Shown here piece after piece: positions 3,601 to 19,947 of a DNA stretch of 20,152 nt. The stretch is from a virus. The position numbers and the translations under genes are program-made. The notes below the pieces were generated by a model. The model worked only from the letters and a program-made list of their open reading frames with translations, was not told where the DNA came from and searched no databases. Location: IMG/VR virus record IMGVR_UViG_3300031711_000266, positions 1 to 20,152 of that record, one strand, 5' to 3'. Numbering within the stretch: position 1 is the stretch's first letter; each line of letters opens with the position of its first letter.

Positions 3601-3855
3601 GTGCTGCGGAATGCGTGCGCCCGAAGTGTGCGGATAGACTTCGGTCGTGAGCAAACTGAGCGAAAGCAAAAAAAAAAGACTCAGGCCGCGGTAGTAGACA
3701 AGCTGCTGAAGAACGTGGAGAAGAAGTTGGCAGGCAAGGACGTAAAAGCGACCTTGGGAGATTACATCAAGCTAGTGCAACTCCAGGCGGAACTGGAAGA
3801 GGAAGAGCCGAAGGACATCACGGTGACCTGGGTGGAACCGAAACCCGAGACGTAG
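3601..3855 (+). CDS. Putative terminase small subunit-like protein
   Basis: This small charged protein lies directly upstream of the large terminase, where the DNA-recognition small subunit usually sits. The well-behaved part runs from about 3678 (TQAAVVDKLLKNVEKKL, then GKDVKATLGDYIKLVQLQAEL and EPKDITVTWVEP), which is mostly helical with a short C-terminal strand. The start is unsure. The in-frame GTG at 3601 has no ribosome site and encodes an unconvincing N-terminus. A GTG at 3647 in another frame encodes MSKLSESKKK and runs into the 10-A tract at 3668-3677, where a one-base slip would join it to this frame. No HTH is obvious, so the terminase role rests on position and size. Confidence 0.55.
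   Translation: MLRNACARSVRIDFGREQTERKQKKKTQAAVVDKLLKNVEKKLAGKDVKATLGDYIKLVQLQAELEEEEPKDITVTWVEPKPET
3668..3677 (+). other. Ten-A homopolymer, possible slippage site
   Basis: Ten consecutive A residues occur near the 5' end of the small-terminase gene. The frame starting at GTG 3647 (MSKLSESKKK) stops soon after the tract, while the frame that encodes the rest of the protein is one base back. Polymerase or ribosome slippage here would create a plausible N-terminus. A sequencing error or a length polymorphism would do the same. Confidence 0.4.
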
Positions 3856-3866
3856 AGCGCCGAGAC

Positions 3867-5132
3867 ATTGAATATTGGCCGCTGCCGTCGCAGAAGCGGT
3901 TCCACGAATCGGGGGCGAGGTTCAAGGGGTTTTCGGGACCGATCGGATCGGGCAAGAGCCAGGCGTTGTGCCAGGAAGCGATCAAGCTGAGTTACTTGAA
4001 TCCTGGGCGAACGGGGCTGATCGGGGCACCGACGTATCCGATGTTGCGGGATGCGACGGTAGCGGCGTTGTTAGAGGCGCTGGCGAAGAACGGAATTCCG
4101 CACGAGGTGAATCGTGCGGAGAACTATCTGCTGATGGGGGAAACGAGATCGAGGATCTTGTTTCGGGCGGTGGAGGAGTTCGAGCGGCTACGCGGGAGCA
4201 ACCTGGCGTGGTTCGGACTGGACGAGCTGACGTACACGTCAGAAGAGGCCTGGCTGCGGCTGGAAGGGCGGCTAAGAGATCCAAAAGCAGCCAGGCTGTG
4301 CGGGTTCGCGGTGTGGACCCCGAAGGGTTACGACTGGGTCTACGAGCGGTTCGTCGCGGAGCGGGTGGATGGCTATGAGGTGGTGACCGCGAAGGCGTTC
4401 GAGAATCGGCATCTGCTGGAGCGGGTGCCGGACTACTACGAGCGGCTCAAGAGCAGTTATGACACGCGGTTTTATCAGCAGGAGGTGCTCGGCGAGTATC
4501 TGCATTTGCATGCCGGGCGAGTGTACTACGGATTCGAGCGGGGGAAGAATGTCGCTGAAGTGAAGGTGGATCGGAATCGGGCGCTGTTGTGGGCGCTGGA
4601 TTTCAACGTGGATCCGATGTGCTCAGTCGTCGCGCAGGTGGGGGGCGAGGGAGTGGTGGTGCTGGACGAGATCGTGCTGAGCCGGGCGACGACGCAGCAG
4701 GCGTGCGAGGAATTTCAGAATCGGTTTCCGGAACATGGCGCGGGGCTGAAGGTGTATGCGGACGCGTCGGGGGCGCATATGCAGACGACGGGGACGTCGG
4801 ATCTAGCGGTGCTGAAGAAGTTCTTTCGGAGCGGCGAGTACGGGGCGGTGGAGTTTAAAGTTCCGAGGTCGAATCCGGCGGTGCGGGATCGGGTGATGGT
4901 GGTCAACGCGGCGTTGGAGCCGGCGGATGGGGAGTCGCGGCTATTGATCGATGGGCGCTGCAAAGAGTTGATCAAAGACCTGGAGCAGGTGGCGTACAAG
5001 GAGAACACTCAGGTGATCGACAAGGATCGGGATCCGAGGAGAACGCACTTGTCGGATGCGCTGGGGTATCTAGTTTGGCAGGAGCTGCGGGTGGGGGAGA
5101 GGGTCGGAGAGAGAGGGACGAGGCTGATTTAA
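3867..5132 (+). CDS. Phage terminase large subunit
   Basis: This is the ATP-driven DNA-packaging motor and headful nuclease. With residue 1 at 3867, Walker A is GPIGSGKS (24-31), Walker B with its catalytic Glu is LAWFGLDE (ending 120), and the RuvC-like nuclease acids are D245 in ALDFN, D299 in YADASG and D397 in HLSDALGY. The first ATG/GTG/TTG start in this frame is TTG at 3966, which lies after Walker A, so it cannot give a working motor. Upstream the frame is open but holds no canonical start. ATT at 3867, before EYWPLPSQKRFHE, is my best guess. It lies 11 bases after the small-terminase stop, so translational coupling is possible. A lost ATG or a frameshift fusion with the upstream gene are the alternatives. 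The length of about 421 residues is normal for TerL. Confidence 0.88.
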   Translation: MEYWPLPSQKRFHESGARFKGFSGPIGSGKSQALCQEAIKLSYLNPGRTGLIGAPTYPMLRDATVAALLEALAKNGIPHEVNRAENYLLMGETRSRILFRAVEEFERLRGSNLAWFGLDELTYTSEEAWLRLEGRLRDPKAARLCGFAVWTPKGYDWVYERFVAERVDGYEVVTAKAFENRHLLERVPDYYERLKSSYDTRFYQQEVLGEYLHLHAGRVYYGFERGKNVAEVKVDRNRALLWALDFNVDPMCSVVAQVGGEGVVVLDEIVLSRATTQQACEEFQNRFPEHGAGLKVYADASGAHMQTTGTSDLAVLKKFFRSGEYGAVEFKVPRSNPAVRDRVMVVNAALEPADGESRLLIDGRCKELIKDLEQVAYKENTQVIDKDRDPRRTHLSDALGYLVWQELRVGERVGERGTRLI

Positions 5133-5140
5133 AGCATTTA

Positions 5141-5204: not shown

Positions 5205-5215
5205 TAAGGAGAGTG

Positions 5216-6592
5216 ATGGTGTTCGACATTGATCAAGAGCATCCGGAGTATGTGGCGAAGAAGGTCGCGTGGCGAAGATATCGCGATCTGTATGCGGGCG
5301 GCGAACAGTTCCGTGTGAATGCGGCGGAGTACCTGATCCCCCGCCAGAGGGAGCCGGGCGAGGTATACGCAGAGCGGCTGTGCCGGATTTTCTACGAGAA
5401 CTACGTGGGATCGATCGTGGACTGGTACGCGGCGACGCTGTTCCGGCAGGAGCCGGTGATCACCTTCGACGGCAGCGATGCGGCGTCGAAAACATTCTTC
5501 GCGGCGCTGGTGGAGGATTCGGACCGAAGAGGCACGTCGCTGACAGATTTCTTTCGGCGGCAGTTCACGGAGAGTTTGGTGACGGGCACCAGTTACGTGC
5601 TGGTGGATTTTCCGCGCATCGCCACATGGGACACAAGGCGGCCGGGGACGCGCGGGGAGGAAGACGCGAGCGGTGCGTCGCGGGCGTACCTGGTGGAATA
5701 CGGCGCGGACGACGTCATCAACTGGAGCCTGGATGAGTACGGGAACTTCGAGTGGGTGGTAATCCGGACGAAACAGATCAAGAAAGATCGTGTGGAGGAT
5801 CCGGATTGGCGAACCGAGACCAAGTGGGCGTACTACGACAAGCAGACTTATCGAATCTATCTTGAGCGCGATGGTGAAGGCAAACTCATCGATCAAGGAA
5901 CGCACGCGTTGGCCAAGCTGGGGCAAACACCGCTGTTTGCGCTGCGGATTCCGGAAGGGCTGTGGATGCTCAATCGGGCGGCCTCGCTGCAACTGGAGCA
6001 CTTCAATAAGTCGAATGCCCTGAGCTGGGCGCTGACGATGGGGCTGTTCGCGATGCCGGTGGTGTATTCGGATCGCGAGTGGAGCCAGATGGTGGGGGAG
6101 AGCTATTACATCCAGCTTGGACCGCAGGACAGGTTCGGCTGGACGGAGCCGGAAGGAAAGGTCTACCAGATCGCCGCGGACAACCTGGTGCGGCTGCGGG
6201 AAGAGATCTACAGGGTGTGCTATCTGAGCCAGGCCGGAGTCGAGCAAAGCGGAACGCAGCGCCAGAGCGCGCTCAGCAAGCAGATGGATTTTGCAATCAC
6301 GCAGGAGGTACTGCGCGGATACGGGGACGCAATCAAAGAGCAGATCCGGCGAGTGCTGCGGGCGACGGCGGCGGCTCGCGAAGACGGGTTGGATGTGAGT
6401 GTAACCGGCATGGACGAGTTTGACATCGCGGACTTCGGGACGGAACTGGAGGACGCAAAGCAACTACTCACGCTGGGCGTGACGTCGCCGACGCTGACGA
6501 AGGAAGTCTTCAAGAAGCTGGCGCTGAAGTATCTGTGCGATTCGCGGCAGGACGTGAAGGATCGGATTGTGGAAGAGATCGAGGGGGTTTGA
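5216..6592 (+). CDS. Phage portal protein
   Basis: This 458-residue protein most resembles the DUF4055-type portal family. The portal dodecamer sits at one capsid vertex, docks the terminase and later joins the tail. Supporting features are the N-terminal DLYAGGEQFRVNAAEYLIPR, the aromatic-rich FYENYVGSIVDWYAATLF, the central RIPEGLWMLNRAASLQLEHF, and the long C-terminal helical stretch with SALSKQMDF and ELEDAKQLLTLGVTSPTLTKEVFKKLA. It lies immediately after the large terminase, the canonical position. The start at ATG 5216 is favoured by AAGGAG four bases upstream; a GTG at 5213 would be too close to that site. The length is normal and there is no sign of damage. Confidence 0.85.
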   Translation: MVFDIDQEHPEYVAKKVAWRRYRDLYAGGEQFRVNAAEYLIPRQREPGEVYAERLCRIFYENYVGSIVDWYAATLFRQEPVITFDGSDAASKTFFAALVEDSDRRGTSLTDFFRRQFTESLVTGTSYVLVDFPRIATWDTRRPGTRGEEDASGASRAYLVEYGADDVINWSLDEYGNFEWVVIRTKQIKKDRVEDPDWRTETKWAYYDKQTYRIYLERDGEGKLIDQGTHALAKLGQTPLFALRIPEGLWMLNRAASLQLEHFNKSNALSWALTMGLFAMPVVYSDREWSQMVGESYYIQLGPQDRFGWTEPEGKVYQIAADNLVRLREEIYRVCYLSQAGVEQSGTQRQSALSKQMDFAITQEVLRGYGDAIKEQIRRVLRATAAAREDGLDVSVTGMDEFDIADFGTELEDAKQLLTLGVTSPTLTKEVFKKLALKYLCDSRQDVKDRIVEEIEGV

Positions 6593-6611: not shown

Positions 6612-6736
6612 GGGGACAGCCAGCCGATTTCGGGGAGCTGCCGCGGACAGAGGGGACTGTAGTTCATCGAAATCGGTAGGCAGTCCCTCACGCTCCGTCG
6701 GTTGATCGAAATCGGTGGGCAGTCCCCCACGCTCCG
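6612..6736. repeat. Interspersed repeat A, copy 2 with duplicated right arm
   Basis: The left arm at 6612-6632 is identical to the left arm at 3464. The right arm at 6668-6687 matches 3519-3538, and the loop again contains GCGGACAG and TAGTTCAT. The right arm plus its flank (ATCGAAATCGG to CACGCTCCG) is then repeated 39 bases on (about 6704-6736) with a few changes, a tandem duplication. It lies between the portal and scaffold genes and ends just before the scaffold ribosome site. Confidence 0.8.
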
Positions 6737-6753: not shown

Positions 6754-7167
6754 ATGGACGAAACAGATATTCGAGTGGTGCTGGAGGAACTGGCGGAGGA
6801 GCGGCGCCGAAGAGAAGGCCTGGAGAAGCGGGTGGAGGAAGCCGAACGGGGATCGGCCATCCGGGCGGAGCTGCAGAAGCTGGGGGTGGCGAAGCTCGAT
6901 CTGGCGTACAAGGCGGTAAAGGACGAAGTTCCGCGCGACGGCGGAGAGATGAAAGAGTTCCTGAAGAAATTCGTCGGCGAGAATCCGGAGCTGTTGCCGG
7001 CGCGGGTGGCGGGGGGGTCGGGGGCAAGTGGCGGGACACGTGGGAGCGGCGCGGGGGCGGGTGGGGTGGACATCGACAAGATCCGGCCGGGGATGAGCGC
7101 GGAAGAGATGGACAGGGTGAGGCAGGAAATCGCGCGGGTGGCGTCGCAAACGCTACGCGGGCTTTGA
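6754..7167 (+). CDS. Putative capsid scaffolding protein
   Basis: This 137-residue, highly charged, mostly helical protein sits between portal and capsid, where scaffolding proteins (and often a head protease) lie. Residues about 3-45 (VVLEELAEERRRREGLEKRV and onward) should form a coiled coil. A Gly/Ala/Ser linker follows near residues 88-108, then a terminal helix pair (PGMSAEEMDRVRQEIARVAS), like the coat-binding tail of scaffolds. It has no protease motif. The start at ATG 6754 has AGGAG five bases upstream; the earlier GTG at 6715 falls inside the repeat and is rejected. Scaffolds diverge fast, so the call rests on position and composition. Confidence 0.6.
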   Translation: MDETDIRVVLEELAEERRRREGLEKRVEEAERGSAIRAELQKLGVAKLDLAYKAVKDEVPRDGGEMKEFLKKFVGENPELLPARVAGGSGASGGTRGSGAGAGGVDIDKIRPGMSAEEMDRVRQEIARVASQTLRGL

Positions 7168-7207: not shown

Positions 7208-8119
7208 ATGGGTGCAATTACATCGAGTAACGTAGCGAACGCGATTGTGAAGCTGGTGGCGGCGGACGCGCTACCCGCGCTGATGGGGAACCTTGTCATG
7301 GGCAACCTGGTCAATCGCGACTATGAGCCGGCGCTGGCGCAAGCGGGAGACACGATCAACGTGCCGATTCCGCCGGCGATGACGGCTCACAACCTGACGG
7401 AAGGCAGCACGGTGACAACTCAGAATCCGAACCTGGACAATGCGCAGATCGTGCTGAACACGCACGCGGAGGCGACCTTCCTGATTCCGGACGTGACCAA
7501 GATTCTCGCGGTTCCGGATCTGCTGAAGCTGTACATGCAACCGGCGGTGGTGGCACTGGCGGAGAAGATCGAGACGGACCTTCTGGCTCTGTATGCGTCC
7601 TTTACCGCAAACACGGCAGTGGGGACAGGCGGAACGGCGATCACGGAAGAAGTGGTGGACGCAGCGGAAACCGGGCTGTTCGCGGCGAAGGTTCCTCCAA
7701 ATGCGGCGAAGTATCTGGTGGTGGACCCGGGGACGTATTCGACACTGCGGCAGATTCCTCGGTTCAGCGAGTTCAACACGGCGGGTGAAGCAGGTTTGCG
7801 CGCGCTGGTGGACGGGGCGGTCGGGAAGATGAAGGACTTCTACATTTTCCGGTCGCAGTTCGTGATGAAGACGGGGTCGAGTCCAGTGACCACGCACAAC
7901 CTGGCCTTCGCGCGGGACGCGATCGGTCTGGTGGTGCGCCGGCTGCCGAGACCGCTGCCGGGGACGGGGGCGATCGCGGAGTACGCCGAACTGGGCAGCT
8001 TCGGGATGCGGGTGACGATGAGTTATCAACCGAACACGCTGGCGCAGCAGTTTACAGTGGACGTGCTGTATGGCTCGGGCTTGCTGAGAAACAGCTTCGG
8101 GGTGCAGGTGAACAGCTAG
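7208..8119 (+). CDS. Major capsid protein
   Basis: This 303-residue coat protein is most like the P22-type coat group of the HK97 fold, and would form the icosahedral shell. Supporting features are the N-terminal helix with LVAADALPALMGNLVMGNLV, then NRDYEPALAQAGDTINVPIP (the usual start of the E-loop/P-domain region), LYMQPAVVALAEKIETDLLALYA (spine helix) and AKYLVVDPGTYSTLRQIP (A-domain). AFARDAIGLVVRRLPRP and GMRVTMSYQPNTLAQQFTVDVLYG form the C-terminal strands. No long N-terminal delta domain is present and no protease is encoded nearby, which fits a separate scaffold. A strong ribosome site precedes it and a repeat B hairpin follows. Confidence 0.85.
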   Translation: MGAITSSNVANAIVKLVAADALPALMGNLVMGNLVNRDYEPALAQAGDTINVPIPPAMTAHNLTEGSTVTTQNPNLDNAQIVLNTHAEATFLIPDVTKILAVPDLLKLYMQPAVVALAEKIETDLLALYASFTANTAVGTGGTAITEEVVDAAETGLFAAKVPPNAAKYLVVDPGTYSTLRQIPRFSEFNTAGEAGLRALVDGAVGKMKDFYIFRSQFVMKTGSSPVTTHNLAFARDAIGLVVRRLPRPLPGTGAIAEYAELGSFGMRVTMSYQPNTLAQQFTVDVLYGSGLLRNSFGVQVNS

Positions 8120-8192: not shown

Positions 8193-8450
8193 ATGAATTT
8201 GCTCGCGTATTACGAGAAGATTCGCAAGATCGAAGCCGTGATCGAGGTGGTGTTCGCGGTGGTGACCAGTCGGGCTACGCCGGATGGAGGCAGGGCCGGG
8301 GTGAAAACGGAGCTACCGCGCGCGGTGGCGGCGCGCTTGATCGCCGAAGGGAAGGCAGACCTGGCGAATCCCGAGGAGACGGCGCAATTCCGCGCGGAAG
8401 CGGAGGCGAAATGGAAAGAGGCGCAACTGAATGTTGCTGATAGACGGTAG
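8193..8450 (+). CDS. Small hypothetical protein after capsid
   Basis: This 85-residue protein is not firmly recognised. It has an N-terminal helix (LLAYYEKIRKIEAVIEV), a central TSRATPDGGRAGVKTELPRAVAARLIAEGKADLANPEE segment (two short spans joined here for orientation only, read as TSRATPDGGRAG and ELPRAVAARLIAEGKA), and a charged C-terminal helix. The basic-to-acidic turn with ARLIAEGKA recalls small head proteins that follow capsid genes. AAAGG four bases upstream supports ATG 8193. It overlaps the next gene by 20 bases, so the two are translationally coupled and belong to the virion operon. Confidence 0.7.
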   Translation: MNLLAYYEKIRKIEAVIEVVFAVVTSRATPDGGRAGVKTELPRAVAARLIAEGKADLANPEETAQFRAEAEAKWKEAQLNVADRR

Positions 8451-9234
8451 TCCGAACGGCACCGAAGACTTGCGCGTATATGAGTCGGCAATCCTTGGGC
8501 TAGCGAACTTAGAATCGATCGACCTGGGAGTGAAGCTGGACCTAGCGACCGAAGAGGTCGCGGAGGACGTGCTGGATTTTCTCCTGGATCATGCGGGCAC
8601 GAATCTGCAAGTATTTTCGCCATTCCAGGTCGGGACGCCCGCGGCCCGGCGCAGAACCATCGGCGTATCGGACGTGGTGGTTACGAGGCAACTGAAACGC
8701 TGGCATGCGGTACACACGCTAGAGATCGTGTACCGGGATGCGTTCAACAATCAGCTGAACGACCGGTATCAGCCAAAGTTTCTGGAGTACCGGGAGCTGA
8801 CGCGGAACGCGCGGGAGCACACATTTCATTTCGGCGTGGGCCTAGCGCTGACGCCGATTCCGCAGGCGCAGACGCCGGTGTTCAGTGCCGTGGCTGGTCT
8901 GATTCCCGCGACCACTTACTATGCTCGGGTGTCGTGGGTGGGAGCGTCCGGGCAGGAGGGAGAGCCGTGTGAGATGACGGCTTACGCTGCGCCGGCTGGG
9001 AGCCTGCCAGTGGTGCAGATGCCAAGTACACCTGTCGTCGCGGCGGTCGCGACGGGGTTCAACGTTTATCTGGGACTGACGCCGGACGGGCTGGCGTTAC
9101 AGAATCCGACACCGGTTCCGGTGGGGCAGAGTTTCACGTTGGCGGGTTCGGGGTTGGCTGCGGGCGCAGCGCCGGGAGACGGGCAAGCCGCCGACACCTA
9201 TATCAGTGGCGGCTGGATGCTGAGGCGGGGTTGA
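8431..9234 (+). CDS. Putative head-tail connector with C-terminal Ig/FN3-like domain
   Basis: This 267-residue protein lies where adaptor and stopper genes occur. Residues 1-70 are helical (ESAILGLANLESIDLGVKL, then EVAEDVLDFLLDHAG) as in connector adaptors. Residues 70-135 include RRTIGVSDVVVTRQLKRWHA and YRDAFNNQLNDRY. From about residue 145 there is a beta-rich domain (IPATTYYARVSWVGASGQEG, GFNVYLGLTPDG) that resembles an FN3-like module in the hub protein at 15540-15870. Such surface modules often bind sugars. I do not recognise the N-terminal family by name, so the connector role is from position and helix content. The ATG lies inside the preceding gene. Confidence 0.5.
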   Translation: MLLIDGSPNGTEDLRVYESAILGLANLESIDLGVKLDLATEEVAEDVLDFLLDHAGTNLQVFSPFQVGTPAARRRTIGVSDVVVTRQLKRWHAVHTLEIVYRDAFNNQLNDRYQPKFLEYRELTRNAREHTFHFGVGLALTPIPQAQTPVFSAVAGLIPATTYYARVSWVGASGQEGEPCEMTAYAAPAGSLPVVQMPSTPVVAAVATGFNVYLGLTPDGLALQNPTPVPVGQSFTLAGSGLAAGAAPGDGQAADTYISGGWMLRRG

Positions 9235-9238: not shown

Positions 9239-9736
9239 ATGGCCATGACAGGAAGCGTCGCGACGCGCAAGATGGTGGGGTTCCTGACGGCGACGGATAC
9301 GGGGCTCGGTCCGGCGGTGGCGGAGATCGCGAACGAGACCTCAGTGGAGCTGGCTCCCATTCCGCCGGGCCACGTCGTGAACCAGAACGTTTCTTTCGAA
9401 CTGAGCGAGCGTGCGCAGATTGTGAAGTACCCGGCGGTGTATGTGTACGTGGATCGCGTACGGAATCTACTGACGGAGAAGTTCCGAACTTTTTCGGGCA
9501 AGGTTCGAACGGTCGCCGAGGTGCGGGTTTCGCAGGATCGGATCGAGGGAGTGGAGGAGCAACTGCGGCTATACGTGGAAGCGGTTACGCAGGTGCTGGA
9601 CGCAAATCGGGGGAGCTGGGGAGAAGGGGCATTCTTCACAGGCGGGTACGAAGTGAGTATCGATCCAGTACGCCATGGCGGGAAGAATTTCCTACAGATC
9701 GCGAAAGTCGAATTTGAAGTGGACATGTCATTGTAA
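9239..9736 (+). CDS. Putative tail terminator / tail completion protein
   Basis: This 165-residue protein sits directly before the tail tube gene, the usual place for the tail terminator that caps the tube and joins the head. The middle fits that fold: YPAVYVYVDRVRNLLTEKF, then RTVAEVRVSQDRIEGVEEQL, a helix (YVEAVTQVLDANRG) and a closing strand pair (GYEVSIDPVRHG, FLQIAKVEFEVDMS). Terminators share a mixed sheet of this kind with low sequence identity. The ATG follows the upstream stop by four bases, so the genes are coupled. A neck-completion role is the alternative. Confidence 0.55.
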   Translation: MAMTGSVATRKMVGFLTATDTGLGPAVAEIANETSVELAPIPPGHVVNQNVSFELSERAQIVKYPAVYVYVDRVRNLLTEKFRTFSGKVRTVAEVRVSQDRIEGVEEQLRLYVEAVTQVLDANRGSWGEGAFFTGGYEVSIDPVRHGGKNFLQIAKVEFEVDMSL

Positions 9737-9769
9737 GCCGCAAATGAACGCAAATAAACGCAAATGAGT
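9734..9769 (+). repeat. Repeat C, copy 1, carrying a stop and a start codon
   Basis: After the stop TAA, the sequence GCCGCAAATGA is followed by ACGCAAATAA and ACGCAAATGA, a 10-base unit repeated about three times. The last unit contains the ATG (9764) of the tail tube gene. The same motif with G for A (TAAGCCGCGAATGAAGGCG) occurs at 17209. No Shine-Dalgarno sequence separates it from the start codon. Confidence 0.75.
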
Positions 9770-10936
9770 TGCTATATATCATCGAACAACAACAGAGTCT
9801 ACGTGGCGCTGGAGTCGAACTATGGCCAGGCGGCCGGGATCACGGGCGCGAATCGGATTCCCCTTGTGAAGCTGACGGCACGTCAGGTTCAGGAACAGGC
9901 CAGTCGCCGGGATAAGACGGGAAGCCGAACGTTTCCGGGACTGCCAAACCGGATCCGGAGGCGTACGAATTTCCAACTGAACACGTTCATGACGCAGTGG
10001 ACGGATCAGACGGTGCCGCCGACCCACGGGCCGTTGTTTCGGGCGGCGATGGGGGCCACGCCGGTGATCTTCGCGGGCGGAACCGTGGCGGTGGTCACAG
10101 GGCAGACGCAGATCCAATTCGCGGCGGCGCACGGGCTGACGGCGGGTCAAGCGATCACTTCCGCGGGCGAGATCCGGTTCGTGGCGGCGGTGCAGAACAC
10201 GACGACGGTGTTCATAAATGCGGCGTTTACGGTTACGCCGGTAGCGGGCTCGGCCATCGGAGCGACGGCAACCTTTCAACTTGCGAACGACCTGGGAAGC
10301 ACGACGATCTACGACTACTGGGATCCGAGCACCGTAGTGCAACGGATCCTAAACGGCGCGGCCATGGACGCGATGAAAGTGACGGTGAACGGAGACTTTC
10401 ACGAGTTCGAGTTTTCCGGGCCATCGCAGGACCTGCTGGACAGTGCGAGCTTCGTGAGCGGGCAGGCGGGACTCAGCAGCTATCCGGCGGAACCGTCTTC
10501 GGCAGACTTCGATTACACGATTGTTCCGGGGCATCTGGGACAGGTGTGGATGGGCGCGCCCGAAAGCCAATTCCTCACTTTGACGGCGGCGCAACTGACG
10601 ATGACAAACGGAATCGCGCAACGGTTGCAGGAGTTCGGTAGCGACTTTGCGAGGTGCATTACGGCGGGTGAGCGAACGGTGCGGCTGAACTTCAAGATCT
10701 TCGAGCACGATGACGCGCAGACGAAAGCCCTGTATCAGGCGGCTCGGCAACGTTCGCCGATCGGGGTGATGTTGCAGTTGGGCGAGCAGACGGGGCAATT
10801 GTTCGGGGCGTACATGCCGGCAATGGTTCCGGAGGTGCCGGAATTCGACGACAGTGAGACGCGGCTGCAGTGGGCGTTTCAAAACGATCGCGCGCAGGGG
10901 ACGGTGAATGACGAGTTGTACATTGCTTTCGGGTAA
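9764..10936 (+). CDS. Major tail tube protein with inserted domain
   Basis: This 390-residue protein is placed as the tube subunit of a non-contractile tail. It follows the terminator and precedes the chaperone pair. The core is beta-rich: RVYVALESNYGQAAGI at the N-terminus (a common tail-tube start), MKVTVNGDFHEFEFSG in the middle, and a C-terminal half with LTLTAAQLTMTNGIAQRL, ERTVRLNFKIFE and LQWAFQNDRAQGTVNDELYI. Residues about 105-175 (VVTGQTQIQFAAAHGLTAGQ, then TTTVFINAAFTV) look like an inserted surface module; many tube proteins carry such insertions. The start ATG lies inside repeat C without a ribosome site, odd for what should be one of the most abundant products. The stop falls in the first unit of a 15-base tandem repeat. 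Confidence 0.75.
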   Translation: MSCYISSNNNRVYVALESNYGQAAGITGANRIPLVKLTARQVQEQASRRDKTGSRTFPGLPNRIRRRTNFQLNTFMTQWTDQTVPPTHGPLFRAAMGATPVIFAGGTVAVVTGQTQIQFAAAHGLTAGQAITSAGEIRFVAAVQNTTTVFINAAFTVTPVAGSAIGATATFQLANDLGSTTIYDYWDPSTVVQRILNGAAMDAMKVTVNGDFHEFEFSGPSQDLLDSASFVSGQAGLSSYPAEPSSADFDYTIVPGHLGQVWMGAPESQFLTLTAAQLTMTNGIAQRLQEFGSDFARCITAGERTVRLNFKIFEHDDAQTKALYQAARQRSPIGVMLQLGEQTGQLFGAYMPAMVPEVPEFDDSETRLQWAFQNDRAQGTVNDELYIAFG

Positions 10937-11330
10937 CGGGCTTTCGGGTAACGGGCTTTCGGGTAACAGACACGAGAGCTCGGCGTGGTTCGATGCGGAG
11001 ACTTGCGCAGGAGTGCGATTCCGGGTAGCGCGGATCTCCGTGGCGAGGAGGATCGAGCTGGCGCGGAGGATTCGGGAGATCGGCCGGAAGGTGGAGTTTC
11101 TGGATGCGGGGCAGGATCCGCGGGAGAAGCTCGAGGCGGCGGTGCTGGCGGCGGAGATCGACCGCGTGTATCTAGAGTGGGGGTTGGAAGCGATCGAGGG
11201 TCTGGAAATTGACGGAGAAGCGGCGACGCCGGCTGCGCTGATCGAGAAAGGTCCGTTGGATCTGGCCAAGGAGATGCTGGGCCGGATCAAACGGGAGTGC
11301 GGGCTGAGCGAGGACCAACGAAAAAACTGA
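10908..11330 (+). CDS. Tail assembly chaperone G-like protein
   Basis: This 140-residue, strongly helical protein lies between tail tube and tape measure, the place of lambda G. Helices include VARRIELARRIREIGRKVEF, EKLEAAVLAAEIDRVYLEWG and LAKEMLGRIKRECGL. Chaperones of this kind coat the tape measure during tail assembly and are absent from the virion. It ends at a UGA preceded by the slippery heptamer A AAA AAC, so a fraction should continue into the next frame. The first 25 residues contain LSGNG three times, encoded by the 15-base repeat. The ATG at 10908 overlaps the tail tube gene by 29 bases; GTG at 11013 is a later possible start that omits the repeat. Confidence 0.75.
   Translation: MTSCTLLSGNGLSGNGLSGNRHESSAWFDAETCAGVRFRVARISVARRIELARRIREIGRKVEFLDAGQDPREKLEAAVLAAEIDRVYLEWGLEAIEGLEIDGEAATPAALIEKGPLDLAKEMLGRIKRECGLSEDQRKN
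10926..10967 (+). repeat. 15-base tandem repeat, about three units
   Basis: CTTTCGGGTAACGGG occurs twice in full and a third time for 12 bases. In the tail tube frame the first unit reads FG-stop; in the chaperone frame each unit reads LSGNG. The period is a multiple of three, so copy number can change without breaking the chaperone frame. Confidence 0.85.
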
Positions 11331-11647
11331 TTGTCGCATTTCATTTCCTGCGCGGTGACGGGTCCCGATGGGAATGCGACGCGTGCCGGAAGCAGGGCCT
11401 CGAAGTGCGCAGACGTTGCGGGTTTCTGCCGGAGGAACAACGCGGTGCCAGGCGAATCGTGTGGGCGCGCGGGGCGGCGTCGACCGAAGAGTGCCCGAAG
11501 TCGCTGATGACGGCGGAAAGTATCGAACTGCTGGAAAGGTTCTTAGCGGCGCGTGCCTGGGGGTGGCGCGATCCGACGGCGCGTGAGGCGGACGCATTCC
11601 TGGCGCTGGAACAAGAGCTGCGGGCGGAGGGGTTGAATGGCAAGTGA
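11297..11647 (+). CDS. Tail assembly chaperone T extension (made by -1 frameshift)
   Basis: This frame overlaps the end of the G-like gene and is one base back from it. A -1 slip at 11321-11327 joins G through Asn140 to LIVAFHFLRGDGSRWECDAC and onward for about 106 residues, giving a fusion of about 246. The annotated span begins at a GTG with no ribosome site, so independent initiation is less likely. The T part contains a possible zinc knuckle (CDAC, then RRRC, then EEC) and a C-terminal helix pair (AESIELLERFLAARAWGW, AFLALEQELRAEGL). In lambda the T part of GT contacts the tail tube protein while G coats the tape measure. It overlaps the tape measure start by 11 bases. Confidence 0.72.
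   Translation: MRAERGPTKKLIVAFHFLRGDGSRWECDACRKQGLEVRRRCGFLPEEQRGARRIVWARGAASTEECPKSLMTAESIELLERFLAARAWGWRDPTAREADAFLALEQELRAEGLNGK
11321..11327 (+). promoter_or_regulatory. Programmed -1 ribosomal frameshift site A AAA AAC
   Basis: In the G frame the codons are cgA AAA AAC TGA, an exact X XXY YYZ heptamer directly followed by a stop. Slipping back one base gives AAA AAA CTG and opens the T frame. Position (between tube and tape measure), frame change (-1) and stop placement all match the G/GT arrangement conserved in long-tailed phages. No stimulatory stem-loop has been modelled. Confidence 0.82.
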
Positions 11648-12185: not shown

Positions 12186-12542
12186 GTGGCGAATTTCCCA
12201 GCGTTGAAGACGGGAGCGGTGGCGCAGTATCCGTCGGACCGGACAAGGCGGTATTCGACACAGGTGCTCCGGTTTCTGGACGGCAGCGAGCAGCGGTTTG
12301 CGGGATTTGGCGCTCCACTGAAACGGTGGCTGATTCGGTTGGAACTACTGGATGACACGGAGCTCGCCGGCTTCGAGGACTTCTTCGTGGAGCAGGGCGG
12401 CCAGGCGGGGACGTTCACGTTTACCGATCCATGGGATGGAACGGTGCATACGAACTGCAGTTTCGAAGGCGACATTATGTCGGCGGATTATCGCGGACGA
12501 AATGACGGCGTAGCCTCGCTGGTGGTCAAGGAGAACCGCTAA
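12186..12542 (+). CDS. Distal tail protein, DUF2460-like (paralog 1)
   Basis: This 118-residue protein starts MANFPALKTGAVAQYPSDRT, then LRFLDGSEQRF, WLIRLELLDDTELAGFEDFF and GTFTFTDPWDG, the pattern of short distal-tail proteins (RcGTA gene 12-like). They form a hexameric ring at the end of the tail tube where the hub docks. The start GTG follows the tape measure stop without a gap, so translation is coupled. It aligns along its length with the N-terminal third of the next protein (FPxLxTGA, YPxxRT, DGS, TFTFxDP), so the two arose by tandem duplication. Confidence 0.72.
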   Translation: MANFPALKTGAVAQYPSDRTRRYSTQVLRFLDGSEQRFAGFGAPLKRWLIRLELLDDTELAGFEDFFVEQGGQAGTFTFTDPWDGTVHTNCSFEGDIMSADYRGRNDGVASLVVKENR

Positions 12543-12543
12543 C

Positions 12544-13332
12544 ATGCTGGTGTTTCCGCAACTGGCGACGGGCGCATCGGCGCTGTATCCGGTGACGCGA
12601 ACGAACGTGACGCGCACGGTGGTGAACGCGCTGGGTGATGGAAGCACGGTGGTCTTCGGGGATCCGGATGCCGGGACGCGGGAGTGGGAGCTTCGGGCGA
12701 GTGGACTGACTTTGAACGAATGGACGGCAATCGACACACTGTTCCAGGCGGTGACGGGAAGATTCGCAACATTCACGTTTTTGGATCCCTTCGGCAACCT
12801 GCTGCTGCGTAGCGAAGAGTTTGGCGATCCGGCGTGGGTCAACGGCTCGCTGATTCAGTTGACGCCGGGCATCAGTGATCCGTTGGGAACGACGCGGGCG
12901 ACGCAAGTGGTCAACGCGGGGTCGGCCGCAGGTGCGGTCGCGCAAACACTGGCGGCCCCTGGAAATTTCCGGTACACGCTGAGCGTGTGGGCGAAGACGA
13001 CGGGCGTATCGAACGTAACGCTATCGGCAACGACGACGGGAGGCAGCGCGACGCGCAGTATCGCCTTGACGAGCCAGTGGATGCGGGCTTCGCTGGACGT
13101 GGAATTGGGACTAAACACGGACAACGTTGTGTTCGGGGTGGTTCTGGATGTGGGTGCAATCGTGGACTTGTTCGGGATGCAAGTGGAGGCGCAGCCGGGA
13201 ACGTCGGATTACAAGAAGACGGGTGGAAGCGCCGGCCTGTATTCGCAAGCCCGCTTTGCGGAGGACGACTTCACGGTGACGGCCCAGGGCACCGATGTGT
13301 TCGATGCGGTGATTAGGATTATGGCGAGCTGA
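12544..13332 (+). CDS. Distal tail protein paralog 2 with carbohydrate-binding-like extension
   Basis: This is a 262-residue protein. Residues 1-85 repeat the distal-tail pattern of the preceding gene: FPQLATGASALYPVTRT, NALGDGSTVVFGD, EWELRASGLTLNEW and ATFTFLDPFGNLL. Residues about 90-225 are a beta-sandwich-like insert (RSEEFGDPAWVNGSLIQLTP, YTLSVWAKTTGVSNVTLSAT, VFGVVLDVGAIVDLFGMQVE) that resembles the carbohydrate-binding jelly-roll often seen in phage tail proteins (SEEFG..W and WAKT are typical). A short closing segment (ARFAEDDFTVTAQGTDVFDA) returns to the base fold. Evolved distal-tail proteins of other phages carry similar sugar-binding insertions. AAGGAG ten bases upstream supports the start. 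Which paralog forms the ring, or whether both do, cannot be told from sequence. Confidence 0.72.
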   Translation: MLVFPQLATGASALYPVTRTNVTRTVVNALGDGSTVVFGDPDAGTREWELRASGLTLNEWTAIDTLFQAVTGRFATFTFLDPFGNLLLRSEEFGDPAWVNGSLIQLTPGISDPLGTTRATQVVNAGSAAGAVAQTLAAPGNFRYTLSVWAKTTGVSNVTLSATTTGGSATRSIALTSQWMRASLDVELGLNTDNVVFGVVLDVGAIVDLFGMQVEAQPGTSDYKKTGGSAGLYSQARFAEDDFTVTAQGTDVFDAVIRIMAS

Positions 13333-13338: not shown

Positions 13339-16300
13339 ATGCCGACGATAGATCAACTCAAAGAAGAGCAGACACCTCCGACACCGCTGTTCCTATTCGA
13401 ATGCACCTTACAGAATGGTTCAGTGGAGCGGTGGGGAACGCACGCGGTAACGTTTGACGGCAACAATTACGACGCACGGTTGTTGAAGCATAATCTTTTC
13501 GAGCTGGCGGCAGCGCCGGAAGACACCAAGATCAGTGTCACGTTGGCGAACGCGGATTCTCGGTTTTCGGAGATTGAACGGGAGACGGGGTTCCGGGGCG
13601 CGCAGGTGGTCGCCCGTTTCCTGTTTTACGACTTGACCGCTCAAGCGGCGTCGTCGGAAGCGCGGATCGTATTTCGTGGAATTGCAAACGCGGCGGAAGA
13701 GACGACGGAAGCGGCACTGCGGGTCACGTTCACGAACCGGCTGAATTTGCAGCGCATCGTGCTTCCCGACGTGCGAATCCAGCGGCGATGTCCATGGGTA
13801 TTCCCGGCGACGTCCGACCAGCGGCTTGAGGCGTTGACCGGCGGCACGAAGGGAAAATATTCGGCGCTGTATCGCTGCGGATATTCGCCCGATCAGACGG
13901 GCGGTGTGGGCACGCTGGATAGCGGGCAGCCGTTCACGACTTGCGACTACACGCGACCGGCGTGCACGGCGCGCGGAATGTTCGACATCGGACGATTCGG
14001 CGGCGTGGAGTTCGTACCGGCGCAGATCGAGGTGCGAAGTTTCGGCGAGTCGGGATCACATCTCTCTCCGATTATCGCGAGCGAGGCTCGATACAACGAT
14101 TTCGTTCCGCTAGTGTACGGTACGGCGTGGTATCAGCCGCCGGTGGTCTTTGCGAGGAACGATGGAAATCTTACCCATCTGGAAGTGCTGTTGGGGATGG
14201 GCGAGATCGCGGAGATCTTGAAGGTTGTCGTGAATGATGTGGAAGTTCCCGAGGGCGTCAGCGGCGTGGATATGACCGGGACGGGCTGGTTCAGCCTCGT
14301 CACCGGCGGCACGCGGTCGGGATCATTCAATCCGGATTTCCCTGGCGGCGATCCATACGGCAGCATGGCGATGGCTAGCGTGGTGGTGCCGAATCAGATC
14401 AGCAACGGACAGTCGCTGCCCAGAGTCCAGGTGCTGTTGGCAGGACTGAAGCTGGAGCGATTCGACGAGAGCGGCGCGTCTCTCGGCGAAGCATTTACGA
14501 ATAACCCCGCATGGGTTTTGCTGGATGTGCTGCGGCGAAGCGGCTGGCTTACGTCGGATGTCGACCTGGTGAGCTTTGCTACGGCAGCCGCGTACTGCGA
14601 GGAAGCGATCGAGACCACGGACCTCTATGGCAACACGGTCCTGGTTCCGCGATTTGAATGCAACCTGGTGGTGAATCGGCGATGGAGCGCGGCCGAAGTC
14701 GCACGGGGCATCCGGAACGGATCGTCGCTGCTGCTTACGTACGGAACCGGAGGGCTGCTGACCCTACGGGTCGAAAACACGCTAGCACTGCAGCAGCCCG
14801 CGAAGCCGGACGGCAGCAATAGCACCGAGGTGTTGAACGGCGGCTGGCCGGCCTATGAGTTCAGCGACGGGTCGGCTTCGTTCTCGGGTATTCTGCGCAA
14901 ACCAGGCGGCGAACCAGCCATTCGTTTGTACGCAGCCAGTGGCGCCGATACGCCAAACCGGTTGACGGTGGAATTCCAAGACGAGTTCAACGAGTATCAG
15001 CAGGATAGTCTGTCTCTGGCGGATGTGGACGACGCGCTGTTGACGCAGCGGGAAGTCACGGCTACGTTTCCGGGCCTAGGGCTTCCGAACTTCGACCAGG
15101 CAACGCGGATGCTGGATCTGCAACTGGCGAAGTCGACCGTAGGGAGCACGCTGGTCGAGTTCGAGACGACCGTGCGCGGCGCGGGGCTCGTACCGGGCGA
15201 TCTGATCACGGTCACGTATCTGAAGGAAGGGTTACAAAGACAACCGTTCCGGATCCTGCGCCTGGCTCCGGGAGCGAACTATCAGACAGTTCTGATCACG
15301 GCGCAATGGCACGATGACGCATGGTACACGTCGGGCGGCGCCAGCGCGGCTGGAGGTCGCAGAACAGGCGCGGGGGAGATCGGGCTGCCGCGGCCCCTGG
15401 TAGGAAGCGTACTGGACACAAACGGGATCGAACAATTCGGCATTACGGAGACGCTGATTCCGCTTTCGGATGGCGGATTCCAGGTGAAGCTAAGAGCGGC
15501 GTTCACGGTGCCGGCCGCGCCCGCGTCGTCACTGGCGAATATTCCACTGGTGAGCCTGAATCCGACGATCAACGCAACGGGCGGAACGCTCGCGGGCGGA
15601 CAGACGCTGTACTACGCAGTGAGCGCGACGGATTCGAGCGGCGCGGAAAGCGGACTGTCATTCGCGATACGGGCGAAGATCCCCACGGGAACAAACACGA
15701 ACTCCGTGAGTCTGACGGGACTGAGTTTTTCGCCGGGCAATACCACAGCATTCTCGGTGTACCGCGGATCGAATCCGATGGAGCTGCTGCGGGTCGCGCA
15801 TGGCCAGACGGTGGCGACCTCGTTCGCGGACGCGGGAGGAACGGCTGAGCTGGTGGGTCCGCCGGACGGCAACTACAATCACGCGAACTTCTATTGGAGG
15901 CTGGAGCTGCAGCCGGAAGAGAACGCGGGGATTCACTCGGCGACGACCATCGGCAAAACCGGGCTCGGAATGTCGGCGGATAACTTCAAGGGTGCGCTGG
16001 TGCGGGTGATGCGTGGAACCGGGACGACGCAAGAGCGCGTCGTGGTTACGAATACCGACACCACCTTGACTATCAGCCCGCCGTGGCAAGTGGAGCCGGA
16101 TTCGACGAGCTATTTCGTGGTGGCGGATGGAACGTGGAGATTCGGCGGCGTGAGCACATCGAGTCCGGCAGAGTTTGAGGTTTCGAATACGCCGGGCGCG
16201 ACCGTCGAAATATCGGGCCGGTCGGCCAATGTGCTCGATCAAGAAAGCGCGTACGAACTGAATCCGCTGACGCGCTGGCAGATCGGCGGGAGTTCGGGAG

Positions 16301-17211
16301 GTGTGGACACGGACACACCGCCGCCACCGTCATTCACGTTGAGCTTGACCGGCCAGGGCACGGTTGAGCTATCGGGGATCACGTTTACGACAATGGCGAA
16401 CACAGAGACGATCCAGGCGGGAACGCTGTGTTTGTTTTACTGGGATGAACTCAACAGCCCGACGACGTTTTCATTGGCAAGCGCCATTACTGCGACCGAT
16501 ACAACCATAACCTTGAATGCAGCGGGCCCAGCCGTCGTCGGGCAGTTTGTGCAGATCGAAGCAGAGCTTCTGGAAGTAGAGGCCGTGGCCAGCGGAGGGA
16601 CGCAGTACCAGGTCGTCAGGGGATCGCTTGGGAGCACCGCTGTGTCGCACGCTGGCGCGACGCTGGCGTATCACTTGCAGCGTTTGATCGTGACAATTCC
16701 GTTTGTAAAAGGCTTCTTCGGGAGTCCGGCGAACGCGGCTTTCAGTTATTCGGTGTTCCTTCCCAATGTGCGGATTGGCGCGGCGGAGTTGTACATGACG
16801 AACGCGGTAGGCGGCGGGCTGGTGGGGAATGCCGCGTTCGGGGCGACCGCGGATCAGGGGTTGCGCACGCTGGCGGGCGGGCAACTCTCGATCCAGACGC
16901 AAGGGTATCTGGCCATTCAGACAGGGGCGGCACCGCCGCTGGTGCTTGAGGATCCGCACGTGCCGCGTGATATTTCCGCGATTGTGCGAGAAGCTCCCAG
17001 CGGAGGCGCGATCGAAATGCAAGTGACGCAGAGTGGTTCGGCATACTGCACTTTGACGATTGCGGACGGACAGACCGTTTCAAACGTAGTCGGCGGATTC
17101 GGGCTAGCGCCGCTGGCCGCGAGCGCGCGGCTGGACCTGGACATTACATCGGTGCCGACGGCCGCGGGGACGTTGCCGGGTCGCGATCTGACGGTCACGA
17201 TCAGACTGTAA
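13339..17211 (+). CDS. Tail hub/tip protein: gpL-like Fe-S domain fused to gpJ-like tip
   Basis: This 1290-residue protein is the largest of the cluster. Residues 1-215 resemble the lambda gpL / RcGTA gene 13 hub: DGNNYDARLLKHNLFELAAA, KISVTLANADSRF, then four cysteines at 151 (RRCPW), 180 (YRCGY), 202 (TTCDYT) and 209 (PACTARG) before RFGG. The last two spacings (22 and 7) are close to those of the cluster-binding cysteines of gpL, so a 4Fe-4S cluster is likely. Residues about 225-700 look gpJ-like (NDFVPLVYGTAWYQPPVVFA, WVLLDVLRRSGW, FECNLVVNRRWSAAEVARGI). Residues 734-844 hold an FN3-like module (LYYAVSATDSSGAESGLSFA), and beta-rich repeats follow to the end. It should plug the tail tube and contact the host surface. 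The upstream ribosome site is weak. Confidence 0.8.
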   Translation: MPTIDQLKEEQTPPTPLFLFECTLQNGSVERWGTHAVTFDGNNYDARLLKHNLFELAAAPEDTKISVTLANADSRFSEIERETGFRGAQVVARFLFYDLTAQAASSEARIVFRGIANAAEETTEAALRVTFTNRLNLQRIVLPDVRIQRRCPWVFPATSDQRLEALTGGTKGKYSALYRCGYSPDQTGGVGTLDSGQPFTTCDYTRPACTARGMFDIGRFGGVEFVPAQIEVRSFGESGSHLSPIIASEARYNDFVPLVYGTAWYQPPVVFARNDGNLTHLEVLLGMGEIAEILKVVVNDVEVPEGVSGVDMTGTGWFSLVTGGTRSGSFNPDFPGGDPYGSMAMASVVVPNQISNGQSLPRVQVLLAGLKLERFDESGASLGEAFTNNPAWVLLDVLRRSGWLTSDVDLVSFATAAAYCEEAIETTDLYGNTVLVPRFECNLVVNRRWSAAEVARGIRNGSSLLLTYGTGGLLTLRVENTLALQQPAKPDGSNSTEVLNGGWPAYEFSDGSASFSGILRKPGGEPAIRLYAASGADTPNRLTVEFQDEFNEYQQDSLSLADVDDALLTQREVTATFPGLGLPNFDQATRMLDLQLAKSTVGSTLVEFETTVRGAGLVPGDLITVTYLKEGLQRQPFRILRLAPGANYQTVLITAQWHDDAWYTSGGASAAGGRRTGAGEIGLPRPLVGSVLDTNGIEQFGITETLIPLSDGGFQVKLRAAFTVPAAPASSLANIPLVSLNPTINATGGTLAGGQTLYYAVSATDSSGAESGLSFAIRAKIPTGTNTNSVSLTGLSFSPGNTTAFSVYRGSNPMELLRVAHGQTVATSFADAGGTAELVGPPDGNYNHANFYWRLELQPEENAGIHSATTIGKTGLGMSADNFKGALVRVMRGTGTTQERVVVTNTDTTLTISPPWQVEPDSTSYFVVADGTWRFGGVSTSSPAEFEVSNTPGATVEISGRSANVLDQESAYELNPLTRWQIGGSSGGVDTDTPPPPSFTLSLTGQGTVELSGITFTTMANTETIQAGTLCLFYWDELNSPTTFSLASAITATDTTITLNAAGPAVVGQFVQIEAELLEVEAVASGGTQYQVVRGSLGSTAVSHAGATLAYHLQRLIVTIPFVKGFFGSPANAAFSYSVFLPNVRIGAAELYMTNAVGGGLVGNAAFGATADQGLRTLAGGQLSIQTQGYLAIQTGAAPPLVLEDPHVPRDISAIVREAPSGGAIEMQVTQSGSAYCTLTIADGQTVSNVVGGFGLAPLAASARLDLDITSVPTAAGTLPGRDLTVTIRL

Positions 17212-17231
17212 GCCGCGAATGAAGGCGAATG
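17209..17231 (+). repeat. Repeat C, copy 2, carrying a stop and a start codon
   Basis: TAAGCCGCGAATGAAGGCG followed by AATG matches the repeat at 9734, with G for A in the unit. The TAA (17209-17211) ends the hub gene and the final ATG (17229) starts the tail-tip gene. Confidence 0.75.
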
Positions 17232-19947
17232 ACTGAAAAACTCACTCCGGACCGGGATCTGCAATGCTTCTTCTTGCACCCGTCGGCAATCGCGGCCATC
17301 AGTGGTGCATCGGCGGATGGATTCACCGTCTCGGGGACTTGGCGGCAGCAGTTCGACTGGGCCGTCATTGAGTGGAATCGCGATAACGTTTACGAACATC
17401 CGGCATTACGAAATCTACCGGACGGCGATTTGAGCGGGCTGGTGCTGACCTACGAGGAGACTCGCACGAATTGCATCGCGTTGGACTCCGATTTGTTTCC
17501 TACCGTGGACTGGCCGTATTTGAGAGTGTGGGCCGGGGACGATCCGGCAGCAGATCCCTATTTCGTGCGTGTGAAGGATCACGCGGAAGCGATCGAAGGC
17601 AGCTACCAATCGTCGTATGCGGATTTCACGCTTTCCGGAACGGCGGTAGCCGGAGAGTTTGTGGGTTTGGGATATCTCGGGTTGAGTTATACGTATCAGG
17701 TGGTTTCCGGCGACACGCTCGATGATATCGTCGCGGCGATTACGGGCGGGATGAATGGACCGACGTCGCCGTTTCTCACGGCGACACAAACAGGGACGAC
17801 GATTCGTGTGCTTTATCCGAGTGCAGCTGGCGCGAACGGGAACCGTTTCGGCATCTATTCGTCCACGAGTGGTTCGGCAACGTGGGACGCGGCGTCAAAG
17901 ACTCTCGCGAATGGCACGTCGCCGACGAAATGGCGAGTGACGATCGACTTCTCATCATTAGTTGATAAGAACGGGACGACCATTCCGACGAATAAGGTCC
18001 GCAAGCTCCGCTGGACGTATGCGGCGGACTTACAGACCGGCTCGTTCGAGCGGAGTGAATTCGCGGCGGTAATCTCGAATTGGACTGTGACTGGGACCGG
18101 CAGGATCTATTCTGTGGCGGGGCCGGGGAGCCGTCGCTACGAAGATGATGCCGTCGGCATGACGTATAGCGGGACGTGGACCGTCACGCGCGGGAACTTT
18201 TCGGGGGGCTCGATTCACTCGACGACGACGGAGGGCGATTCGGTCAGCTTCCCATACACGGCCGCGCAGACGCACACGGTGTACGTGGGTACGCGATATA
18301 CGGGAAACGGTGCGCAACTATCGATCGTGGTGGACGGCGGCACGGCCACTACGGTGAATCTTCGGGTTCCGGGCGAGGATGTGCTGATTCGCTGGCCGGC
18401 AGGCGAGTTCGGCAGCGGGACTCATACGGTGACCATCACGCACGCGGGTCCGGCGGGCGGAGACTTTTATCTCGACTTTCTGGAGGCAGCCGTACCCACG
18501 ACGACGCTTCCCACATTTCCGGACGAACCGCGGATGACGCTGGCGACGGACTGGGACACCGATCATTCGATCGCGCTTGCGCCCGAGCGAACAGCGTGGC
18601 TGATAGACACGCTGGGGTTCAAGGGCCGGCAAAATCACTACGTGGGCGCGCTGTGGTTCTATGAGCTGGCGAATCCGGACAATGTTTACGCCACGGGCAC
18701 CGTGACGTTCGGAGGAACGCCCGAGCCGGGCCAGTTCGTTTCCGTCTTCCTGGCGCGCGATGATGATCCCGCGGGCACGTCGCCTACGGAGATCCAGCGG
18801 GGGATGCACGGCGGCGACACACTGGATACGATTGCGATTTCGTATGCCCAGGAGCTGAACCATGGCTACACAGGCATATGGGCGAGCGTAGCCGGAAGCG
18901 TGGTCACGATTTATTCGCGCTCCATGGGAGATGACGGAAACCACCACACGCTGAGTCAATCGACGACCAGCAGTACGCTGACGGTGAGCGTCTCGGCGAT
19001 GTTCTCCGGAGGGCATACGGGCTTGTGGCGCACGGATCTGACGGCTGCTCCGCGATTGAATCGCGCGGTACTGGAACCAGAGTTTCTTCACTGCTCTTGC
19101 GAGCTACGGGATCGATGTCGCGACGGCGTTCAGCACCGAGCTTCGCGACGTGGATCCGTCGGTGGGAGTGGGCATGGTTCAGAGAGGGCCGGCCGGCGAC
19201 GCGATTCTGTTGCAGACGCCTTCGTACCAGACGAACTTTTCCCCGACCAGCCTCGATTTCTGGAAGCAAGTGTACCTGGACGCGGCGGCGATTCAAGCGG
19301 ATGCCGGCTTGCGGCCCTATCTGCAATTCGGCGAAGAACAGTGGTGGTATTTTCCGAACGACGGGGCTGGCAACGCGTTTTCCGGAATGCCGTTCTACGA
19401 TGCCTGGACGGCGAGCCAGTTCCTGACGCTGTACGGAAGGGCGATGACGGTGTTTGCCGACAACACGGCCGATCCCACTGCGTATCCCGATGAAGTCGCG
19501 TTTCTCCAGACAGTGCTGGGAAACTTCACTGCCGCGATTATGGCCTACGTCCGGGGAACATACTCGAACGCGCGGTTTGAAGTGCTGTATCCCGTTGATG
19601 TGAACCAGACGAGTTTCAACCGGGCGATTAATTATCCGCCGAGCCAGTGGACAGCGGCCACGCTCGACTGTCTGAAGACGGAAGGCTTCGGTTTCACACT
19701 CCAACGCAACCTCGACAAAAGCGAACAGGCACTGATGTTGGCCGGATTTCCAGCATTCCCGGCGGCCCAGCGAAGCCATCTGGTGGGGGTCGGCGACGCA
19801 ACCACGGCTTGGATGAAAGAGGCCCATTCGGCCCAGGGAAAGGGCTTCGAGAGCGTGGTCTTGTTCGCGCTGGACCAGATGTGTTTGATCGGCTATGCTT
19901 TGCCGCTGCCGGAGATGTTCCGGCGGAGCGTGAGGATGGGGAGTTAA
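17229..19947 (+). pseudogene. GTA TIM-barrel-like tail tip protein, frameshifted
   Basis: Two frames together encode about 905 residues. The first runs from ATG 17229 and makes sense to RTDLTAAPRLNRA (about 19068). The second makes sense from YWNQSFFTALASYGIDVATA (about 19069) to the stop at 19945. Left uncorrected, the first frame continues as Arg-rich nonsense to 19493. Residues 1-125 are an N-terminal domain; about 135-215 and 488-598 are related beta modules, both with a GDTLD motif; 305-420 is jelly-roll-like (EGDSVSFPYTA, LSIVVDGGTATTVNLR). From about 430 a TIM barrel begins (WLIDTLGFKGRQNHYVGALW), is split by the second module, and resumes with LQFGEEQWWYF, VLYPVDVN and VVLFALDQMCLIGY. 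This resembles the TIM-barrel domain of the last RcGTA structural gene. The break is either real damage or a sequence error. Confidence 0.72.
19060..19072 (+). other. Frameshift point in the tail tip gene
   Basis: The meaningful frame changes by +1 (or -2) between AATCGCGCG and TACTGGAAC. The second frame has a stop at 19057-19059, so the switch must lie after it. There is no slippery heptamer and no stop at the switch, unlike the G/T site, so programmed recoding is unlikely. Confidence 0.75.

Follow-up and report, generated by a model that had tools for sequence, protein, structure and literature searches.

The IMG/VR virus record IMGVR_UViG_3300031711_000266 raises the question of whether its virion genes belong to a virus, to a prophage in decay, or to a bacterium that keeps the particle for itself. 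The window, by which we mean the whole stretch of 20,152 b that was analysed, is this record, and its virion genes occupy about 16 kb (window 3601-19947), all on the + strand. The initial annotation had inferred a host-kept locus resembling a gene transfer agent (GTA), a particle of phage origin with which bacteria hand parts of their own DNA to one another, and had named a partly decayed prophage as the main alternative. We are fairly confident that the locus encodes a phage particle which Bryobacterales have domesticated and inherit vertically, most likely a GTA, the packaging and transfer of DNA being inferred. The features of the window are listed below, where counts of loci refer to the best 80 genome loci.

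2255-3418, + strand: glucose/sorbosone dehydrogenase (GSDH; PF07995), upstream host gene, likewise accompanying the locus in L152 and L006
3601-3855, + strand: TerS-like small ORF of 84 aa, predicted small terminase subunit, function inferred
3828-5132, + strand: large terminase TerL, ATPase and nuclease (phrog_2, E=3.5e-36; PF17289), start probable
5213-6592, + strand: portal protein (phrog_145, E=4.2e-51)
6662-6736, + strand: 39-b tandem repeat at the portal-scaffold junction; palindromic copies at 3464-3540 and 6613 are related to it
6754-7167, + strand: probable scaffolding protein, between portal and coat (weak match to phrog_206, E=0.0014)
7208-8119, + strand: major coat protein of the P22-coat family (PF11651, E=8e-18; phrog_283, E=2e-41)
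8193-8450, + strand: small head/connector-region protein, role unassigned (72/80 loci)
8431-9234, + strand: connector protein, possibly head closure (phrog_8040, E=0.004; 78/80 loci)
9239-9736, + strand: neck/tail-completion-region protein, role inferred from position (75/80 loci)
9764-10936, + strand: tail tube (major tail) protein (phrog_290, E=1.5e-6)
10908-11330, + strand: ORF at the tail-assembly-chaperone position (70/80 loci)
11297-11647, + strand: second, overlapping ORF at the tail-assembly-chaperone position (67/80 loci)
11637-12185, + strand: short tape measure protein of 182 aa (weak match to phrog_3779; position)
12186-12542, + strand: distal tail protein, DUF2460 (PF09343, E=4e-10)
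12544-13332, + strand: second distal-tail protein adjoining the DUF2460 gene (65/80 loci)
13339-17211, + strand: hub/tip protein of 1290 aa (PF13550; phrog_31, E=3.5e-17)
17229-19947, + strand: TIM-barrel tail protein, split by a frameshift (PF23845, E=3e-8; phrog_165, phrog_6040)
19942-20152, + strand: 5' end of a Wzt-type polysaccharide ABC ATPase, host gene (PF14524 and PF00005)

The order is the canonical one of head and tail genes: the TerS-like ORF, TerL, portal, scaffold, P22-type coat, connectors, tail tube and two chaperone-position ORFs are followed by the tape measure, the DUF2460 distal tail protein and its neighbour, the hub/tip and the TIM-barrel protein. Every virion gene named in the initial annotation was found in this order and on this strand, and the flanks were likewise as it had described them, with GSDH on one side and the Wzt-type ABC ATPase on the other. 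The window holds the first ~60 residues of the ATPase, whose best blastx match (79% over 52 aa, E=4e-27) was to a relative's copy. The GC content of the locus equals that of its flanks. Among the ORFs scanned, no integrase, repressor, replication, protease or lysin family was recognised, as had been claimed, and family searches of the window ORFs gave no holin or immunity gene in the locus. The features of a temperate prophage are thus unmet, without an integrase in the window and without replication, repressor or lysis modules in the locus. Searches of the window for tRNA and Rfam RNA gave nothing, and the 300 b upstream of the TerS-like ORF contained no shared regulatory motif of note. A HicB-like antitoxin and a short companion ORF lie on the - strand (window 1487-2145) between an isocitrate dehydrogenase (IDH) gene and the sugar dehydrogenase gene.

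With regard to packaging, the assignment of the TerS-like ORF as the small terminase is inferred from position, size and layout only. An HMM of its family matched directly 5' of TerL in 50 of 57 loci, and the protein has a helical core, a C-terminal motif KEIxVTWVEP and a variable N-terminus that is often Lys/Ala-rich; it had no HTH family match, and neither an HTH nor a TerS match in PHROGs. In the clade of G171, G172 and G209, the N-terminus of the TerS-like protein is long and Lys/Ala-rich. The Walker A and B motifs and three nuclease Asp residues of TerL are essentially invariant in 34 sequences. The TerL frame of the window has no ATG, GTG or TTG ahead of Walker A, and the CTG at 3828, 36 codons before Walker A, coincides with the start position of most relatives, which have ATG, GTG or TTG there; a standard start lies in that zone in 46 of the 47 loci examined. 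Judging from these sequences, TerL probably starts at CTG 3828 and overlaps the TerS-like ORF. A profile of the portal recovers portals of known structure (e.g., 8ts6, E=2e-17), and the scaffold-position protein is kept in all 80 of the best 80 genome loci. An AlphaFold model of the coat, built on an alignment of 15 rows, was set aside (mean pLDDT 30).

The hub/tip protein carries an N-terminal four-Cys hub domain followed by a J-like tip, and its profile matches solved phage tip and baseplate hub proteins; the hub cysteines 151, 180, 202 and 209 are invariant in 34-35 sequences. In G171, G172 and G209 (loci L294-L297, L300 and L301), the TIM-barrel gene is missing from its usual place after the tip, and PF23845 matches occur elsewhere in this clade, in G172 and G209 at a distance of about 1 Mb or more. 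The frameshift of the window, which had been placed in the tip gene and taken as a sign of decay, actually lies in the last gene, that of the TIM-barrel protein, as a net 5-base deficit near 19066-19071. It occurs in the window alone, and the four closest relatives have an uninterrupted frame of 908-916 aa; being private to this copy, it is no sign of decay of the family. A recent lesion and an assembly error would both account for it; unless the assembly is at fault, the frameshift and the CTG start of TerL may together impair the window copy.

Selection bears on the same point. Pairwise Nei-Gojobori comparison of the window with relatives gave dN/dS of 0.04-0.17 for every virion gene tested, which agrees with the expected value below 1; the adjacent host GSDH gene gave 0.055-0.081, and dS of the virion genes was of the same order as that of GSDH. 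Moreover, the frames run their full length in nearly all of about 55 loci. A decaying prophage remnant without function, which the frameshift in the last gene and the lack of lysis and replication modules might suggest, is contradicted for the family by the dN/dS values, by the open frames in these ~55 genomes and by the private nature of the lesion. As an explanation of the locus it is scarcely credible, and it remains possible only for the single copy of the window.

The repeats in the gene junctions had been cited as evidence of long vertical residence. They are real: palindromic copies lie at 3464, 3519, 6613, 6668 and 6707, and an array of three 15-b units lies at 10925. Window repeats also recur in the loci of close relatives, several of them at the same portal-scaffold junction. 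On the other hand, the two repeat motifs tested gave 0 and 1 matches in the nearest genome available, so a spread of the junction repeats through the host chromosome is unsupported. As evidence of long residence, the repeats hold only in part.

The locus is widespread in one order. The coat gene was found in 201 and the portal gene in 202 of 257 genomes of Bryobacterales, the order of the isolate KBS 96, which itself has the locus intact, and almost always as a single copy; presence in only one strain, which would have refuted a host-kept locus, is excluded, since about 80% of the order carry it. Record titles are the basis of the order assignment. The ~20% of order genomes without a match cannot be divided into those that lost the locus and those in which sequence is missing, because genome completeness was not reported. 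In a phylum sample of 396 genomes, the strong matches were two members of the order only, with two further matches near 1e-4, and in a class sample of 299 genomes two matching genomes were outside the order (G651 and G657). G651 has the full gene set, and the loci of the two genomes are L329-L331; a deep vertical origin and transfer remain unresolved for these two carriers outside the order list. The best 80 loci in GTDB genomes contain the same genes, and their labels are nearly all Bryobacterales, Bryobacteraceae, Solibacter or unplaced Acidobacteria/Terriglobia. In G225, contigs C541 and C110 each have a strong portal match, with similar scores, which would mean either a duplicate locus or a mixed bin. 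In IMG/VR, at least nearly 600 relatives were found with the TerL query and nearly 600 with the coat query.

To what extent the locus follows its host was judged by comparing FastTree trees of RpoB, as the one host gene, and of five concatenated virion proteins in 34 genomes, with SH-like supports. The two trees share 17 of 31 splits, against a maximum of 3 in 2000 label permutations, and among splits with support of at least 95, 12 are identical and 1 is contradicted. Distances from RpoB and from the virion proteins are correlated (r=0.71, against at most 0.21 in 5000 permutations), and the agreement with RpoB was similar when head genes, tail genes or a set of ten genes were used. Some branches do conflict between the trees; the agreement expected of gene tree and species tree is nevertheless far beyond chance for RpoB and the virion genes of these genomes. 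One carrier, L194 (NZ_CAJCHS010000017.1; G028), is titled Nevskia soli. Its RpoB and virion genes place the record within Bryobacterales genomes, so the label is probably wrong as far as sequence comparison can tell.

Synteny across relatives points in the same direction, mainly on one side of the locus. The Wzt-type ABC ATPase follows the last virion gene in 17 loci, in addition to the window and the divergent G084; an SSF or POT transporter and then an M24 peptidase come after it. Even in G084, whose tip protein is only 39% identical and where no TIM-barrel match was found, the ATPase and the peptidase come directly after the tip. The upstream neighbours differ between loci, the nearest relative L152 having the IDH and GSDH of the window. 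The flanks in relatives are thus varied, with host-type families at recurrent downstream positions, and the chromosomal address is conserved mainly downstream. As for integration genes, in 11 draft genomes no tyrosine integrase was among the matches listed (to E of about 2e-5) for the contig that carries the locus, and the nearest one listed was ~80 kb away in G171 and more than 400 kb away in G001, G172 and G209. An integrase with att sites just outside the window would have told against a host-kept locus; in 16 genomes, no tyrosine integrase was among the matches listed within ~80 kb, serine integrases and att sites being outside the scope of this search.

Phage relatives of the locus do exist in the same hosts. 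Besides the locus, G038 carries a true phage, L216 (G038:C156), which has DnaN-, methyltransferase- and SSB-like genes (named by reading the sequences) and a 999-aa tape measure at the same position; its coat is 77% identical to that of the window, its portal 33% and its TerL 47%. Over the related phages found, the identity to the window is 51-77% for coat, 29-33% for portal and 32-51% for TerL. The Bryobacterales phages L216, L309, L314, L316 and L318 have a coat of the same family (60-77% identical) and share the TerL and portal superfamilies; they differ in portal (29-33%) and TerL (32-51%), on records of up to 67 kb. In the portal tree, the locus clade is separate from the phages with full support; in the TerL tree, the locus sequences are together with negligible support; in the coat tree, several phage coats fall inside the locus clade. 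In L216, L309, L316 and L318, the coat is 64-77% identical to that of the window and nested in the host-locus coat clade, with distant portal and TerL. This nesting indicates that coat genes have moved between the host locus and phages. Among isolate phages, the nearest single genes are TerL of Cyanophage KBS-S-2A, the coat of Streptomyces phage Hiyaa and the portal of Caudoviricetes MW202476; identity was at most 34% over most of a protein, and none has the gene set.

Could the locus then be an ordinary temperate prophage or small phage of Bryobacterales that was repeatedly acquired? Such a reading would draw on the true relatives in the same hosts, namely L216 with its 77% coat and L314 and L316 on 55-67-kb records. 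It would have to explain why host and virion trees agree, why the downstream address is fixed, why a single copy resides in ~80% of the order, and why replication genes are absent and no integrase is nearby among the matches listed. Moreover, in IMG/VR the records that hold the locus are mostly 15-19 kb long (30 of the longest relatives examined were 15.3-19.0 kb, with one of 21.2 kb), whereas those of related phages are 26-67 kb. We therefore consider repeated acquisition very unlikely. Full temperate phages carrying the same genes had been named as a refutation; the phages found share closely only the coat.

The host-kept particle is thus well supported by synteny, tree agreement and dN/dS, gene transfer itself being inferred. 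Six criteria have been given for GTAs: proteins derived from caudoviricetes; full endogenisation; mostly vertical inheritance with co-diversification with the host; encapsidation of mostly random host DNA; a genome too large for one particle; and delivery of the DNA to cells (PMC9662315). Three of these are met by the locus, namely the derivation (TerL, portal, coat, tail and tip families), the vertical inheritance and the endogenisation, with chromosomal flanks in all genomes examined, a downstream address that is kept and no tyrosine integrase listed nearby. For random packaging there is only a hint, the TerS-like ORF without HTH, and packaging is inferred. An HTH domain is also missing from the small terminase of RcGTA, and the authors of that work suggest that packaging is random for this reason (PMC6854486).

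The resemblance to RcGTA (Rhodogtaviriformidae) that had been pointed out holds for the layout, for DUF2460 and for the Fe-S-type hub. Both have a single head-tail cluster from terminase to TIM-barrel protein, a small TerS without HTH, a very short tape measure, a DUF2460 distal tail protein and a Cys-rich hub, with order-wide vertical inheritance and without integrase or replication genes. The tape measure is indeed very short, at 182 aa in the window; the figure of about 220 residues is that of RcGTA. Membership in the RcGTA family did not hold. RcGTA has an HK97-type coat with a protease, whereas the locus has a P22-type coat with a scaffold and no head protease by families; in addition, no lysis enzyme was recognised in the cluster, and the phylum is different. 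The RcGTA portal is of the PF04860 family, whose model gave no match in the window (a control search matched in Caulobacter), and the window coat matches PF11651 and phrog_283, not PF05065, the family of the HK97-type RcGTA coat. This mismatch of coat and portal places the locus outside the RcGTA family. DUF2460, the family of RcGTA gp12, is common in ordinary phages too and so is not diagnostic. BaGTA, BhGTA/VSH-1, Dd1, VTA of M. voltae and FpGTA of Faecalibacterium are independent domestications of tailed phages in other hosts, and are works-like analogues (no sequence comparison) rather than siphophage/P22-coat loci of Bryobacterales.

Our verdict is that the locus is new, independently domesticated and GTA-like, and, judged by its P22-type coat and the lack of a match to the RcGTA portal model, in none of the characterised GTA families, its function being inferred. 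Our searches of open PMC papers yielded no description of a GTA or a domesticated prophage from Acidobacteria, Bryobacter or Solibacter; in one study, prophages were predicted in genomes of acidobacteria, among them KBS 96, and none was called a GTA (PMC5900883). With somewhat less assurance than for domestication itself, we think it probable that this is an independently evolved GTA, the first in Acidobacteriota, inherited vertically through nearly the whole of an order of dominant soil bacteria, present in hundreds of IMG/VR "virus" records and with a capsid gene repeatedly captured by phages of the same hosts.

How such a particle might work can be proposed as follows. With a TerS-like protein that lacks a sequence-specific DNA-binding domain, TerL would pack host DNA by sequence-independent headful cutting. 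P22-type heads built on the scaffold would receive this DNA, and a short non-contractile tail (182-aa tape measure; DUF2460 protein, four-Cys hub and TIM-barrel tip) would deliver it to sister cells. Cell exit would depend on lysis genes, which on this model must lie elsewhere in the genome because none was recognised in the locus.

The vertical inheritance, the purifying selection and the lack of phage replication genes would fit equally well with a domesticated particle like PBSX, kept by the host and filled with random chromosomal DNA, whose use is to kill competitors or some other host purpose and not to deliver DNA. PBSX itself packages dispersed chromosomal fragments of 13.4 kb (PMC12946183). 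The absence of a lysin, holin or immunity gene from the locus argues against this reading; the tail-tip genes are constrained like the head genes, which fails to separate it from DNA delivery. We consider it unlikely, though less so than the other rival readings. Another host role, such as interference with phages through capsid sharing or a shell for storage of protein or DNA, gains some support from same-host phage coats of the same clade, as the locus proteins could co-assemble with phage heads. It seems improbable, in that a shell or decoy needs no selected terminase, portal and full tail.

Finally, only a few lineages, most of them Alphaproteobacteria, have proven GTAs. If the Bryobacterales locus is a GTA, it would add an independent case to the question of why hosts keep such particles, and hundreds of soil "viral" contigs would be host genes. 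The coat genes common to the locus and phages of the same hosts would allow gene flow between a domesticated particle and its viral relatives to be studied in nature. An order-wide locus in an abundant soil group would also open capsid-mediated DNA exchange in soil to direct testing.
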